Below are positions 16,885 to 61,462 of a stretch of 64,000 bases of DNA, piece by piece (within the stretch, counting starts at the first letter, position 1; every line of letters begins with the position of its first letter). The stretch comes from Bacteroidales bacterium. GTDB taxonomy: Bacteria > Bacteroidota > Bacteroidia > Bacteroidales > Tenuifilaceae. The translations under genes were made by a program, and so were the position numbers. The stretch spans positions 1 to 64,000 of the forward strand of contig JANYLA010000028.1 in NCBI GenBank assembly GCA_025361485.1, given 5' to 3'. Below the pieces are notes generated by a model. It was not told the origin of the DNA, made no database searches, and saw only the letters and a list, made by a program, of their open reading frames with translations.

Positions 16885-16979
16885 GATGAGAGGTGAGAGG
16901 TGAGAGGTGAGAAATGAGACTTCCAACTTCGGACTTCTGTCTTCCAACTTCTGTCTTCCAACTTCTGACTCCCGGATAC
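16885..16979. repeat. Intergenic heptanucleotide tandem repeat (GGTGAGA)n followed by (RNCTTCY)n
   Basis: GATGAGA GGTGAGA GGTGAGA GGTGAGA AATGAGA CTTCCAA CTTCGGA CTTCTGT CTTCCAA CTTCTGT CTTCCAA CTTCTGA; 7-bp periodicity. Confidence 0.85.
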
Positions 16980-52986: not shown

Positions 52987-55900
52987 ATGAGTAGTATCAA
53001 AATCACCACCATGCCCGTTACGGGTCTCTCGTGCAGCAATTGCGCAATGAGTATCGAAACGAATGTGCGCAAAATGAATGGCGTTTCTGAGGCCAACGTC
53101 GATTTCGCTAGCGAGAAGTTGAACGTATCCTTTGACCCATCACAGATTAGCGAGTTAGATATTATTGCTTTAGTTCGTAATGTTGGATATGGCGTAGCCA
53201 TTGGTAAACTAGAACTACCCATAACCGGTATGCAGGATAATACCGATGCGCTAACCTTGGAGAAAATCCTCATTAAACAGAATGGTGTGTTAAGCTGCAC
53301 CGTAAGCTATAGTACAGAACATGCCTCGCTGGAGTACATCCCTGGAGTGGTAAGCGTTGCCGAACTTGCAGGAGTAATCCGTAAAGCGGGATTTGATCTT
53401 GTTCAAGCCGCCGAAACCGAGGAGATTGATGACGTTGAAGCCAAAGTGCGAGCATCGGAACTCGACAAGCAAAAGCGCTTGCTCCTGCTCGGGCTTATTT
53501 TTACAGTTCCTTTGGTCATTTACAGCATGCTGCACGACTTTAAAATCGTTGGATTTGAATACGATCAGTTTGCAATGCTATTTGCCGCAACGGTTGTGCA
53601 GTTTATTGTGGGTTGGCATTTTTATATCGGAGCATTTAAAAGCCTTCGTTACGGCAGCGCAAATATGGATGTTCTCATCATGCTCGGTTCATCTGTGGCA
53701 TATTTTTCCAGTTTACTTGTCACCATAAAAATTATTGATAGCCCAAATGTTTACTACGAAACGGGAGCAGCAATTATCACCTTAATACGACTTGGCAAAT
53801 ATCTCGAAACGCGAGCCAAAGGCAAAACCTCCGATGCGCTGAAAGCCCTGATGAACTTAAAAGCCAAAACAGCTTTCGTGGTTCGGAATGGTGTCGAAAC
53901 AGAAATAAACGTTGAAGGGGTTGAAGTTGGCGATACCATTATAGTTCGTCCCGGCGGAAAAGTTCCCGTTGACGGTATTATCAGCGAAGGCCGATCGGCA
54001 TTTGAAGAATCGATGATTACTGGCGAATCGATGCCCGTTAGCAAAGGTCCCGGCGATATTGTTATCGGTGCAACGATAAACCGCGAAGGATTAATCAAAT
54101 TCGAAGCCACAAAAGTTGGCAAGAATACAACACTGTCGCAGATTGTAAAGCTTGTGCAGCAAGCACAGGGAAGCAAAGCGCCCATTCAAAAGCTGGCCGA
54201 TGAGGTGGGCAAATATTTTGTTCCGATAATCATCGGAATTGCCCTGTTCACATTTATAGGTTGGGTTTACGTAGCCCATATGGACTGGACTGGAGCGATG
54301 ATAAATGCCATTGCAGTAGTGGTTATTGCCTGTCCTTGCGCAATTGGCTTGGCTACACCAACTGCAATAATGGTGGGCACATCAAAAGGAGCTGAAAATG
54401 GTATCCTCTTCAAAAACAGCGAAACGCTTGAACGAGCAGGGAAGATTAATATCGTGGTGCTCGATAAAACGGGTACAATTACGCGAGGCGAGCCAGAAGT
54501 TACCGAAATCATTTCATTAGATAAAACCAACACGAAGGAAGAGGTTCTTCGCATGGCGGCCAGCGCCGAGCAAGGTTCGGAGCATCCTTTAGGTCGCGCG
54601 ATAATAAAGGCGGCACAAGAAAAGGGGTTAACCCTTAATGAGCCGAGCCAATTCCGAGCGCATAGCGGTTTTGGAATTCGGGCTATTGTGGAAGATCATA
54701 ATATCATTGTTGGAAATCCTCGGATGATGCAGAACGAGGGTATCAATATTGAACCAATTGAAGCAGACATTTTGAAACTGCAAGGCGAAGGTAAAACCGT
54801 TATGGTTTTGGCAAAAAGTAAAGCGAATAGTTCTGAAACTTCAAAATTAATTGGTCTAATAGCAGTTGCCGACACAGTAAAACATGGTGCCAAGGAGGCC
54901 ATAGCCGAATTGCGCCAGCTTGGGCTAGAGATTGTTATGATTACTGGCGACAACCAGAGTACCGCCAACGCTATTGCCAAAGAGGTTGGAATTACCCGAG
55001 TTATTGCCGAAGTTTTGCCCAGCGGTAAAGCCGATGCCATAAAACAGCTGCAAGCATCAAAATCATTGGGCAATTTTGCTCATCCAGTTGTTGCCATGGT
55101 TGGCGATGGCATAAACGATGCCCCTGCCCTAGCCCAAGCCGATGTTGGTATTGCCATTGGTACTGGAACCGATATAGCGATTGCCGCAGCAGGTATAACA
55201 TTAATTAGCGGTGAACTTTCAGGTGTAGGTAAAGCCATCTCTCTATCCCGAGGAACTTCACAAACCATTGTTCAGAATTTAATTTGGGCGCTATTCTACA
55301 ACGTTGCGCTAATTCCCATTGCCGCATACGGATTACTTAGCCCCATGTTTGCAGCGGGAGCCATGGCCTTCAGCTCAATTTTTGTGGTAACCAACAGCCT
55401 TCGTTTACGCGCTTATAAGGTACAAACTTTTACTCCAAAGAAAACAATCTTACGCCAATCGTTAGAACTTGTACCTCGCATTATCGCTCCTGCTGCTGCG
55501 CTTGCCATACTCGTTATTGTGCCAATGGTTTTTATGCCGGGTACCAATATGGAGATAAAAGGAGCAAATGCTGGCGAAATGACCCCGTTTGTTATGATGG
55601 TAATGGCTCTTTCGAATGCTATAATTGCTATCTCGTACGCATCTATTCCCGTTTTCCTAATTGTATTTGTTCGAAAGCGAAAAGACATGCCGTTTACATG
55701 GATTATTTTCCTGTTTGGCCTATTTATTTTGGCCTGCGGAACCACTCACATTATGCATGTAATCGGACTTTGGTGGCCAATTAACTGGGAGCAAGCAACG
55801 GTTGACGCCATCTGTGCATTTATCTCATTGGCAACAGCCATTGTGGTTTGGCCTTATCTGCCCGAATTATTAGCAATTCCAAGCCCTAGCCAGCTACGAC

Positions 55901-58020
55901 AGGTAAATACCGAGCTACAAAAAGAGAAGGATAAACTCATGTACACTCAAAATGAGCTACGTAGCGCATACGCCGATGTGGATCATCGCATAAAAGAACG
56001 AACCTATGATTTGGTAATAGCCAACAAATCTCTTCGAGAGGAGATTAACGAGCGAAAAAAAGCGGAGGAGGCCAAGCAGGTTAGCGAGGAGTATTTTAGG
56101 AATGTGTTCGAACATGCAGCCATTGGTAAGTCTATTACTGAAATTGGCGGAAAGTTAAAAACGAATAAAGCTTTCCGACAGATACTTGGCTACACCGAGG
56201 ATGAATTTTCGGTGCTAAGATGGCAGGACATTACACATCCCGATGATATTAAAGCAGATCAGGCAAACATTGAATCTCTTATATCGGGTAAATACACATC
56301 GTTGCGATGGGAAAAGAGGTATATCCACAAGGATGGACGAATCGTTTGGGTTGATTTAAGTACCGTTCTGCAAAGAGATAAAAATGATAACCCGCTCTAT
56401 TTTATTACCACCATTCAGGATATAACGGAACGCAAAGAGACAGAACGTGAACTAAGAGAGAGTAAAACAAAACTATTAGAGAACGAGCAAAGGTTGTCTC
56501 TTGCCTTAGCTGCATCCTCCGACGCTATATGGGAGTGGAATTACATTACTGGACAAACCTACTACAGCTCCCGATGGTACGAAATGCTTGGCTACGCCGA
56601 TCAGGAGTTTGAAATGACCTTTGATGCATGGAAAAACATTTGTCATCCCGACGATTTTCAACCCGCAGTTGATAAAATTAGTGCCGTTTTAAATAACCCC
56701 GAAAGTACGGGATATAATGCCGAATTCAGAATGCTACACAAGAATGGCAATTGGGTTTGGATTATGGGTCGGGGGAATGTTGTAAAAAGGGATAAAAATT
56801 TAAAACCATTACAGCTAAGCGGAACGAATACCAATATCAGCGAGCGCAAGCAGGCTGAAGAAGCAATTATAAATCTTAACTCCGAACTTGAACAACGGGT
56901 TTTTGAACGAACAAAACTGTTGACAAAAAGCGAGAATTTACTAGCTGAAACCGGAAGGCTTGCAAGGGTAGGAGGATGGGAAATTGACCTTAAATTAAAC
57001 AAGCTAAGCTGGACTGACACCGTGTACCTGATTCATGAGGTAGATCTTAATATTGAACCTACGGTTGAAGAGGCAATCAATTTCTATGCCCCCGAATCAA
57101 TTCCTGTTATTACTAATGCTGTAAAATTAGCAATTGAAAAAGACAAACCATTTGACGAAGAACTGCAATTGATTACTGCAAAGGGGAATAGATTATGGGT
57201 TCGTGCAATAGGAAAGGCATACACCGAAAACGCACAAACTGTAAGAATAGGGGGGATTTTTCAGGACATCAATGAACGAAAACTAGCAGAGCAAGAGCTG
57301 AAACGATTGATAATGAACCTAAATGTAAAATCTAACCAGCTGGAATCTACCAATAAAGAGCTCGAAGCATTCAGCTACTCCGTATCGCACGATTTGCGAG
57401 CACCGCTAAGGCATATTAACGGATTCGTTGATATGCTGACAAAAGATTCACGCGAACAGCTGTCGAAAGATTCTCAACATTACCTAGAAATTATTAATAC
57501 CTCTGCACTAAGAATGGGAACGCTGATTGATGATCTACTGAGCTTTTCGCGAACTGGTCGTGCCGAAATAAAAGAATCAGCGTTTAACATGAATCGGCTG
57601 GTTGAGGATTCAATATCGCAAATCAAACTTTCGACAAAAGATCGCAAAATTAGCTGGAAAATTGCTAACTTACCCGACGTTCATGGCGATTACAATTTAT
57701 TGCGTTTAGCATGGGTTAACCTAATCGATAATGCGGTTAAATACACCCGAACACGCAAAAAAGCGATTATAAATATTGATTGTAAGGAGGAAAAGGGCGA
57801 GTTTATTTTCAGCATTCGCGATAATGGGGTTGGTTTCGATATGCAGTACGCACAAAAGTTGTTTGGAGTATTCCAACGCTTACACTCAACCGCCGAGTTC
57901 GAAGGAACTGGAATTGGCCTAGCCAACGTTCGCCGTATCATCCTTAAGCACGGCGGCCGAACTTGGGCCGAAGCGGAAGTGGATAAAGGGGCAACATTTT
58001 ATTTTTCGTTACCCAGATAG
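52987..58020 (+). CDS. Fusion protein: HMA-HMA-Cu+ P1B-type ATPase - ETR1-like (ethylene-receptor-type) copper-binding TM domain - three PAS - histidine kinase
   Basis: [62 protein letters not shown] and MAFSS in TM7/TM8; then [62 protein letters not shown] motifs; [37 protein letters not shown]. Confidence 0.95.
55579..55890 (+). other. ETR1-like three-TM copper/ethylene-binding-type domain inside the fusion ORF
   Basis: Cys917 and His921 (ACGTTH) align with ETR1 Cys65/His69; Tyr884, Ile887, Pro888 align ungapped with Tyr32, Ile35, Pro36. Confidence 0.9.
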
Positions 58021-58041
58021 TCAATAGGAAGAAGAAGGCAA

Positions 58042-58165
58042 TAGGCAATAGTAATAAGATACCAATGGATGAATTTCAAAATACAAGTAATATGATTATA
58101 AAATTATTACAACATAATGATGACTCCCTAACCACTAACGTCTATTGCCTAATGCCTGTTGCCTA
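58042..58165. repeat. 124-bp perfect direct repeat, copy 1
   Basis: Identical to 58578..58701 by eye (TAGGCAATAGTAATAAGATACC...GCCTAATGCCTGTTGCCTA), offset 536 bp. Confidence 0.9.
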
Positions 58166-58199
58166 TTGCCTAATGCCTAAACCCTAATGCCTCAGAAAC

Positions 58200-58556
58200 A
58201 TGATAAAAAGTTACAAAGACTTAATAGTTTGGCAAAAAAGTGTTGATCTGGTAGTATTAATTTATCAAATCACCGATAAGTTTCCTGCTAAAGAAAAATT
58301 TGGATTAATATCTCAAATGCAAAGAGCCTCTGTATCTATTTCTTCAAATATTGCAGAAGGATATGGAAGACAATCATCAGGCAGTTATGCCCAATTTCTT
58401 TCAATTGCCAGAGGCTCTTTGTTTGAACTAGAAACACAGATTGAATTGTGCATAAGATTAGAGTATATCCTAAGAGTAGAATCAGAAAAATTGCTTATTG
58501 AAACAACAGAGATTAGCAAAATGTTAACATCATTAATTTCAAAAATAAGGAAGTGA
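58200..58556 (+). CDS. Four-helix bundle protein (TIGR02436 / 23S rRNA IVP-like, Avd-related fold)
   Basis: YKDLIVWQKSVDLVVLIYQITDKFPAKEKFGLISQMQRASVSISSNIAEGYGRQSSGSYAQFLSIARGSLFELETQIELC. Confidence 0.95.
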   Translation: MIKSYKDLIVWQKSVDLVVLIYQITDKFPAKEKFGLISQMQRASVSISSNIAEGYGRQSSGSYAQFLSIARGSLFELETQIELCIRLEYILRVESEKLLIETTEISKMLTSLISKIRK

Positions 58557-58577
58557 TAGGGATTAGGGATTAAGCGG

Positions 58578-58701
58578 TAGGCAATAGTAATAAGATACCA
58601 ATGGATGAATTTCAAAATACAAGTAATATGATTATAAAATTATTACAACATAATGATGACTCCCTAACCACTAACGTCTATTGCCTAATGCCTGTTGCCT
58701 A
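58578..58701. repeat. 124-bp perfect direct repeat, copy 2
   Basis: Identical to 58042..58165 by eye. Confidence 0.9.
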
Positions 58702-58835
58702 ATGCCTGTTGCCTAATGCCTGTTGCCTAATGCCTGTTGCCTGTTGCCTAATGCCTGTTGCCTAATGCCTGTTGCCTAATGCCTAATGCCTGTTGCCTAT
58801 TGCCTGTTGCCTAATGCCTGTTGCCTAATGCCTAA
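58679..58835. repeat. Heptanucleotide tandem repeat (WTGCCTR)n
   Basis: TTGCCTA ATGCCTG TTGCCTA ATGCCTG ... about 22 heptamers ending just before the response regulator ATG. Confidence 0.92.
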
Positions 58836-58845
58836 TAAAACCACC

Positions 58846-61234: not shown

Positions 61235-61240
61235 AACAAT

Positions 61241-61462
61241 TAACCACAAGGTTCACAAAGAAAAAACACGAAGTACACAAAGAAAAAAATGAAATGATTA
61301 AAAAAACATAGTGGCCTTAGTGAAAACCCTTGTGCCCTTTGTGGTAGAATCTATTTAACCACAAGGTTCACAAAGAAAAAATACGAAGAACACAAAGAAA
61401 AAATGGAATGATTAAAAAAACGTAGTGGCCTTAGTGAAAACCTTTGTGCCCTTTGTGGTTAA
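61241..61462. repeat. Two tandem copies of a 115-bp-period intergenic palindromic element
   Basis: TTAACCACAAGGTTCACAAAGAAAAA...GTGGCCTTAGTGAAAACC(C/T)TTGTGCCCTTTGTGG repeated; complementary ends AACCACAAGG/CCCTTTGTGGTT. Confidence 0.85.

Follow-up and report, generated by a model that had tools for sequence, protein, structure and literature searches.

An IVP/S23 four-helix-bundle gene between inverted heptamer arrays at a kinase/regulator junction: one locus of a candidate mobile repeat system

In Coxiella, the 23S rRNA IVS carries an S23p gene, and tandem GACAGAT heptamers lie 5' of the S23p ORF; the S23p protein of Xanthomonas is reported to be a toroidal homopentamer (PMC4990558). Tandem heptamers have been described in other settings as GGGAATC and GGGGA(C/T)T repeats in Xanthomonas and Nostoc (PMC4692102), and as TAACTGA repeats in Beggiatoaceae, which also occur in cyanobacteria and Bacteroidetes, are suspected of horizontal spread and are those for which 'no mechanism is evident' (PMC4679880). 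S23 is mentioned in neither of the latter two papers. The heptamer repeats of cyanobacteria, xanthomonads, Beggiatoaceae and Bacteroidota have so far been described separately and without an origin. No general account of a link between IVP (S23) genes and such arrays was found in the open-licence literature, and an earlier description elsewhere is possible; as far as we searched, the IVP-heptamer system is new. Linking the two gives each a partner and brings the question within reach of a test that needs a single protein and a short RNA or DNA.

The locus studied here lies near the end of the window (the whole 64-kb stretch of DNA that was analysed), between a histidine-kinase gene ending at 58020 and a response-regulator gene starting at ca. 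58846; the unit thus splits a signalling gene pair, as had been noticed from the letters alone. Its features are collected in Table 1. From 5' to 3', the order is a G-rich arm, an AT-rich core, a C/T-rich arm, the IVP gene, a second G-rich arm, an identical core, a long C/T-rich arm and the response-regulator gene. The original prediction was that a four-helix-bundle gene, bracketed by a perfect direct repeat and heptamer arrays, forms a possible non-autonomous mobile unit. Its description of the sequence was borne out. The two repeat copies are identical over their whole length, both open with TAGGCAATAG and then enter a TGCCTR array, and inverted-repeat and TRF analyses confirmed that inverted heptamers frame the AT-rich core. 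The likeness continues at 95% identity across 151 bp (58042-58192 vs 58578-58728), and a chance origin of a perfect 124-bp repeat is ruled out.

Table 1. Coordinates of the IVP unit and of two further repeat tracts in the window
Feature	Position	Strand	Evidence
Outer G-rich arm AGGCAATAGGCAATAG, inward heptamer TAGGCAA	58036..58051	+	Inverted repeats I9-I12 with CT arms, 94% complementary
Copy 1 of the 124-bp direct repeat, a non-coding mini-unit of G-rich arm, AT-rich core and C/T-rich arm	58042..58165	+	100% identical to copy 2; hairpin fold
C/T-rich heptamer arm CTATTGCCTAATGCC..., 7.3 copies	58142..58192	+	TRF period 7; inverted repeat I1, 58163-58192 with 58558-58587, 83%
IVP/S23 four-helix-bundle gene, 118 aa	58200..58556	+	PF05635 E=5e-40; TIGR02436 E=2e-38; PDB 2gsc E=3e-36
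G-rich heptamer arm AGGGATTAGGGATTAAGCGGTAGGCAATAG, adjoining the stop codon of the IVP gene	58558..58587	+	Inverted repeats I1, I2
Copy 2 of the 124-bp direct repeat, the other non-coding mini-unit	58578..58701	+	100% identical to copy 1
Long C/T-rich heptamer arm (TTGCCTAATGCCTG)n, stopping just short of the response-regulator gene	58678..58836	+	TRF scores 215-290; period 14, 10.9 copies, also period 49
Gene-less arrays, (TGAGAGG)n and, immediately after it, (ACTTCTGTCTTCCA)n	16887..16970	.	TGAGAGG part matches arms of own-genome IVP locus L013; second part matches none
Tandem duplicate of a 114-bp unit with ca. 8-nt AG-type repeats (ACAAAG/CTTTGTG) and inverted ends, between coding regions	61240..61459	.	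Repeat finding

Since the arm-core-arm order is repeated in both 124-bp copies, each of them is a hairpin-like unit by itself, and the gene is sandwiched between the two. When folding of the core region was examined, RNA of mini-unit copy 1 (58030-58192) formed a hairpin of -36 kcal/mol (z = -4.6); the second mini-unit with its long array reached only z = -1.5. No Rfam family, rRNA included, scored at the gathering threshold anywhere in the window, and the scan of the unit gave a single sub-threshold match, outside the core. The search for further copies of the core, from which the earlier reading would have drawn its support, covered the own genome and 27 genomes of the family and turned up no other locus, and the core as a dispersed element was rejected. 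As regards the core, this is the outcome that the original prediction had itself named as refuting. Since it is unique to this locus, the core is not the mobile part. What stands of the mobile-unit reading is an inserted unit with inverted heptamers that recurs at most of the IVP loci examined, whereas the 124-bp core as its driver does not. Most simply, the locus would have arisen when a mini-unit at the kinase/regulator junction underwent duplication, either in tandem with the IVP gene or around it.

The upstream gene is a single ORF of 1677 aa (52987-58020) that combines HMA, a copper-type P-ATPase (PF00122), the N-terminal domain of ethylene receptors (ETR1_N, PF25487, E=3e-30), PAS domains and HisKA/HATPase. 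The congener G002 has the same ATPase/ETR1-kinase fusion as part of a longer frame, with 84% across the junction, and G003 and G004 match only its ETR1-kinase half at that place. Because it is a copper ATPase that supplies the ethylene receptor of plants, a bacterial fusion of the two is striking.

The window ORF is an intact member of the IVP family, matching PF05635 with 136.5 bits (cut-off 33.8) over positions 1-106 of 106 and TIGR02436 with 131 bits (cut-off 24), as the original prediction had assigned it. The kinship with the DGR accessory protein Avd that had been proposed together with this assignment appears to be remote: there is distant similarity, but PF22296 (bAvd) and NF033474 (Avd) gave 31.1 and 27.8 bits, below their cut-offs of 40 and 80. 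A reverse transcriptase (PF00078), which had been reported as missing nearby, is absent from the whole own genome (97% complete), and the DGR reading was rejected on the Avd scores and this absence. No recognised catalytic domain was found in the IVP protein, nor was an enzyme for movement identified; an HUH/Y1 transposase was not among the matches of the gene, which were limited to PF05635 and a weak one to bAvd. The fold was assigned from profile matches to solved structures, and the solved homologues 2gsc and 2rld both contain five chains. At orthologous sites, dN/dS was 0.03-0.14 with dS up to ca. 2.6, showing that the protein is maintained and not drifting. IVP/S23 genes occurred in 90 of the 118 sampled Bacteroidota genomes and in 77 of 369 sampled Gammaproteobacteria. 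One 1.5-Mb genome (G470; L369-L374) holds ca. 10 near-identical genes with weak PF05635 matches and identical flanks, without heptamer arrays; these copies are a different kind of repeat unit.

IVP loci were gathered from the 118 Bacteroidota genomes, a multi-phylum scan, cyanobacterial plasmids and the 369 Gammaproteobacteria, and pooling gave 242 non-redundant loci, spread over Bacteroidota, Gammaproteobacteria, Cyanobacteria and further phyla. Self-similarity was scored for lags 3-15, so that the lag served as the internal control. A lag-7 array was present within 200 bp of the IVP gene in 70% of the 242 loci and at 200-400 bp in 9.5%; near the gene, lag 8 was found in 20% and the remaining lags in 0.4-7%. 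A 7- or 8-nt array was located on at least one side in 90% of the loci, while ca. 10% had no detectable array. Lag 7 stood out near the gene in every sample, with mean scores of 10-21, whereas lags other than 7, 8 and 14 averaged ca. 4-5; three independent samples agreed. At the cyanobacterial plasmid loci, the arrays are visible by eye, and cyanobacterial IVP loci carry AGTAGGG/AGTGGGG-type arms.

The two arms of a locus carry one heptamer in inverted orientation. The upstream heptamer and the inverted downstream heptamer of the same locus differed by a mean distance of 1.34 (68% at most 1 apart), compared with 3.39 between loci (2.5% at most 1 apart) and 3.58 when the arms were compared in direct orientation, i.e. 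with the wrong polarity. Read inward, G exceeded C in 250 arrays and C exceeded G in 31. The pooled loci contained 208 distinct heptamers; it is therefore the period and the polarity that are conserved and not the sequence. The dinucleotide AG is enriched (78% of heptamers) and not universal, so an invariant AG was rejected. For strong concerted evolution between the arms of orthologous sites, the data gave only weak support (distance 1.53 within as against 2.0 across; 18 pairs), and it is not claimed. In the own genome, nearly all of the 11 PF05635 places have inverted 7- or 8-nt arrays that differ by locus, such as AAGTGAT/AAGCGAC at parE/parC, TTGACAG at L010, the 8-nt repeat GGAATAAT before a murC-like gene and AGTGCCT-type repeats at nuoC/nuoD. 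These results indicate that the unit almost certainly consists of the IVP gene together with its inverted heptamer arms.

IVP units were found between genes of conserved operons, such as parE and parC, nuoC and nuoD, and in cyanobacteria cas6 and cas4, cas10 and cmr3, and ribonucleotide reductase subunits; other units have murG-like and murC-like or serA-like and DUF1015 neighbours. Those inside cas operons (L252, L257 and L261; cas6/cas4 and cas10/cmr3) are likely insertions and not CRISPR components; a paper on CRISPR discovery names the IVP domain in one of its figure legends (PMC10910872), and this mention may reflect insertion rather than function. Most units (162 of 214) lie between two genes co-directional with the IVP gene and 16 of 214 between two opposite ones, and the IVP gene is therefore probably read from the transcript of the host operon.

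Empty sites, which the original prediction had suggested looking for in relatives, were present: the orthologous kinase/regulator junction lacks the IVP gene in the congeners G002, G003 and G004. In G003 (L134), a gene-less GTTGCTA inverted-heptamer unit and then an 11-nt-period array, (GACGGGTAATA)n, stand upstream of the response-regulator gene. The parE/parC site is filled in G000 and G003, holds gene-less hairpins with other heptamers in G001 and G002, and is decayed in G004, where the G-rich arm and the first IVP codons are left, followed by an unrelated palindromic insertion (L270). A second site is filled in G069 and G104, carries short gene-less repeat units in G030, G042 and G058, and is a bare 11-bp junction in G073. 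The available empty sites are too diverged to delimit a target-site duplication. Inheritance at orthologous IVP sites is often vertical. At non-orthologous sites, similar IVP proteins, Bacteroidota/cyanobacteria pairs among them, had a mean heptamer distance of 2.74 as against 3.33 ± 0.09 in permuted data. The closest relative found for the window gene (68% identity) lies in another family at a different site, and the heptamers of this pair are AGGCAAT and AGGCATT; one heptamer is common to a cyanobacterial and a Bacteroidota copy (L259/L099). Since similar proteins at unrelated sites, including this relative, have similar heptamers, gene and heptamer appear to move together. Judged from such sequence comparisons, IVP units are very probably mobile or horizontally spread.

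The flanking repeats also occur without a gene. In 459 kb sampled from the own genome, gene-less arrays were ca. 4 times as numerous as IVP genes, and the parE/parC arm alone had more than 20 further matches in that genome. As in RAYT/REPIN-type dispersal, the genome also carries the IVP flanking repeats as scattered inverted doublets that lack the gene; among these gene-less copies, some consist of a single arm instead of a doublet. For 18 gene-less arrays, the mean best score against the arms at the ten IVP loci of their own genome was 20.1, whereas sets of ten loci drawn at random from other Bacteroidota gave 11.4 ± 1.0 (maximum of 2000 sets, 15.5). Lag-7 arrays numbered 2 per 400 kb in IVP-poor genomes (0-1 genes) and 41 per 859 kb in IVP-rich ones, a contrast that is supporting only because base composition differs, the IVP-poor genomes being mostly more GC-rich. 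In the window, the tract at 61240..61459 is possibly a gene-less relative with 8-nt spacing. Taken on the evidence of sequence, it is probable that the IVP protein and the heptamer arrays are cognate partners.

Based on these results, we consider it likely that a pentameric IVP protein, cognate heptamer arms and gene-less satellites make up a two-part system with RAYT/REPIN-like logic. The window locus belongs to a very widespread class of units, in which an IVP gene sits between inverted short-repeat arrays, usually of 7 nt and sometimes of 8. Spacing and inward G-rich polarity are kept while the repeat sequence drifts from locus to locus. Units would be gained at intergenic junctions, mostly in sense between co-directional genes, and gene-less derivatives with the same heptamer, either hairpins or single arms, would become scattered around the genome. 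Binding of the heptamers by the IVP pentamer is put forward only tentatively. The homopentamer may bind the arms as RNA or single-stranded DNA with ca. one heptamer per subunit, a stoichiometry suggested by the five-chain structures, the toroidal S23p and the median array length of 4.7 units. Once bound, the arms might be copied or moved by a separate enzyme; alternatively, they might persist as protein-bound hairpins processed by RNase III, as are the arms of the rRNA IVS.

Of the other explanations, the one that survives best is a segment excised in the manner of an rRNA IVS, in which the double-stranded arm stem is cut by RNase III, the unit is tolerated since it is removed from the transcript, and spread is passive through array recombination. 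A precedent is offered by Coxiella, whose 23S IVS has an S23p gene and GACAGAT heptamers, 3-4 in tandem, at its RNase III site (PMC4990558), and the sense orientation of units in operons and the stable hairpin of the first mini-unit (z = -4.6) fit as well. However, some units are antisense to their neighbours, and passive spread explains neither the purifying selection on the protein nor the cognate satellites. We regard this explanation as a real but lesser possibility; its confidence overlaps with that of the two-part system because RNase III processing is compatible with both.

The arrays lie close to the ends of the IVP gene (median 23 nt before the start codon and 10 nt after the stop codon), a position that would suit an autoregulator that recognises its mRNA at the 5' arm, or else its operator, with the heptamers as binding sites and without mobility. 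The strong purifying selection also agrees with such a role. Autoregulation leaves unexplained the filled, empty and gene-less sites, the heptamers common to unrelated sites, and the occurrence of the same heptamer in the cyanobacterial and Bacteroidota copies (L259/L099), and it appears unlikely.

We hold it slightly less likely still that the arrays represent ordinary microsatellites, formed by strand slippage in intergenic hairpins, and that the IVP gene is a passenger with a tendency to land near them. Gene-less arrays do outnumber IVP loci in the own-genome sample, and array sequence and length change fast at one site. Nevertheless, slippage would not account for a period of specifically 7 (or 8) nt with a peak at the IVP gene, for one heptamer in both arms, inverted and with fixed polarity, for heptamer likeness that tracks protein likeness at unrelated sites, or for satellites that match the arms of their own genome. 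Lastly, a non-autonomous element with the 124-bp repeats as its ends and an Avd-like gene from a DGR relative as its cargo is highly improbable, for although perfect repeats bracket the gene, the core is unique among the own genome and 27 family genomes, the genome has no reverse transcriptase and the Avd models fall below cut-off.

Returning to the two-part system, the association of IVP genes with such arrays is a rule across bacterial phyla, so that several long-unexplained 7-letter repeat families may have a partner protein. In its widest form, which we offer as a conjecture with somewhat less than an even chance of being right, IVP would be the trans-acting partner of previously unrecognised pan-bacterial mobile repeats: a pentameric ring would read tandem heptamers, one per subunit, by their spacing and an AG/G-rich step and so drive their spread, and its branches would be the cyanobacterial STRRs, GGGAATC of Xanthomonas, TAACTGA of Beggiatoa and the IVS heptamers of Coxiella. 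Reading by spacing and the AG/G-rich step, and not by full sequence, would allow the heptamer to drift while the arms stay complementary.

Among the known systems, DNA transposons and MITEs share inverted terminal repeats with the window unit, the arms being inverted at most loci that have arrays on both sides, but the unit contains the IVP gene alone and no transposase. DGR Avd resembles the window protein in distant four-helix-bundle sequence similarity, whereas the window locus has no reverse transcriptase and its Avd scores are below cut-off. The 23S rRNA IVS with S23p (Coxiella, PMC4990558) has the same protein family and arms that pair into a stem; unlike it, IVP units lie between protein genes, here between those of the kinase and the response regulator and not inside a 23S rRNA gene, in a window without rRNA. 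The published heptamer repeats (cyanobacterial STRRs, PMC4692102, PMC4679880) are, like the IVP arms, intergenic tandem heptamers, occurring in Bacteroidetes and cyanobacteria among others, and by this analogy may be IVP satellites. RAYT/REPIN (PMC3116915) resembles the IVP units in having distinct single-copy genes with short inverted repeat flanks and many dispersed, gene-less, palindromic cognate copies, and in pairing different genes with different repeat families. The IVP units differ from it in encoding a four-helix-bundle IVP protein instead of an HUH/Y1 transposase, and in their repeats, which are arrays of tandem heptamers that keep their period and polarity as the sequence drifts.
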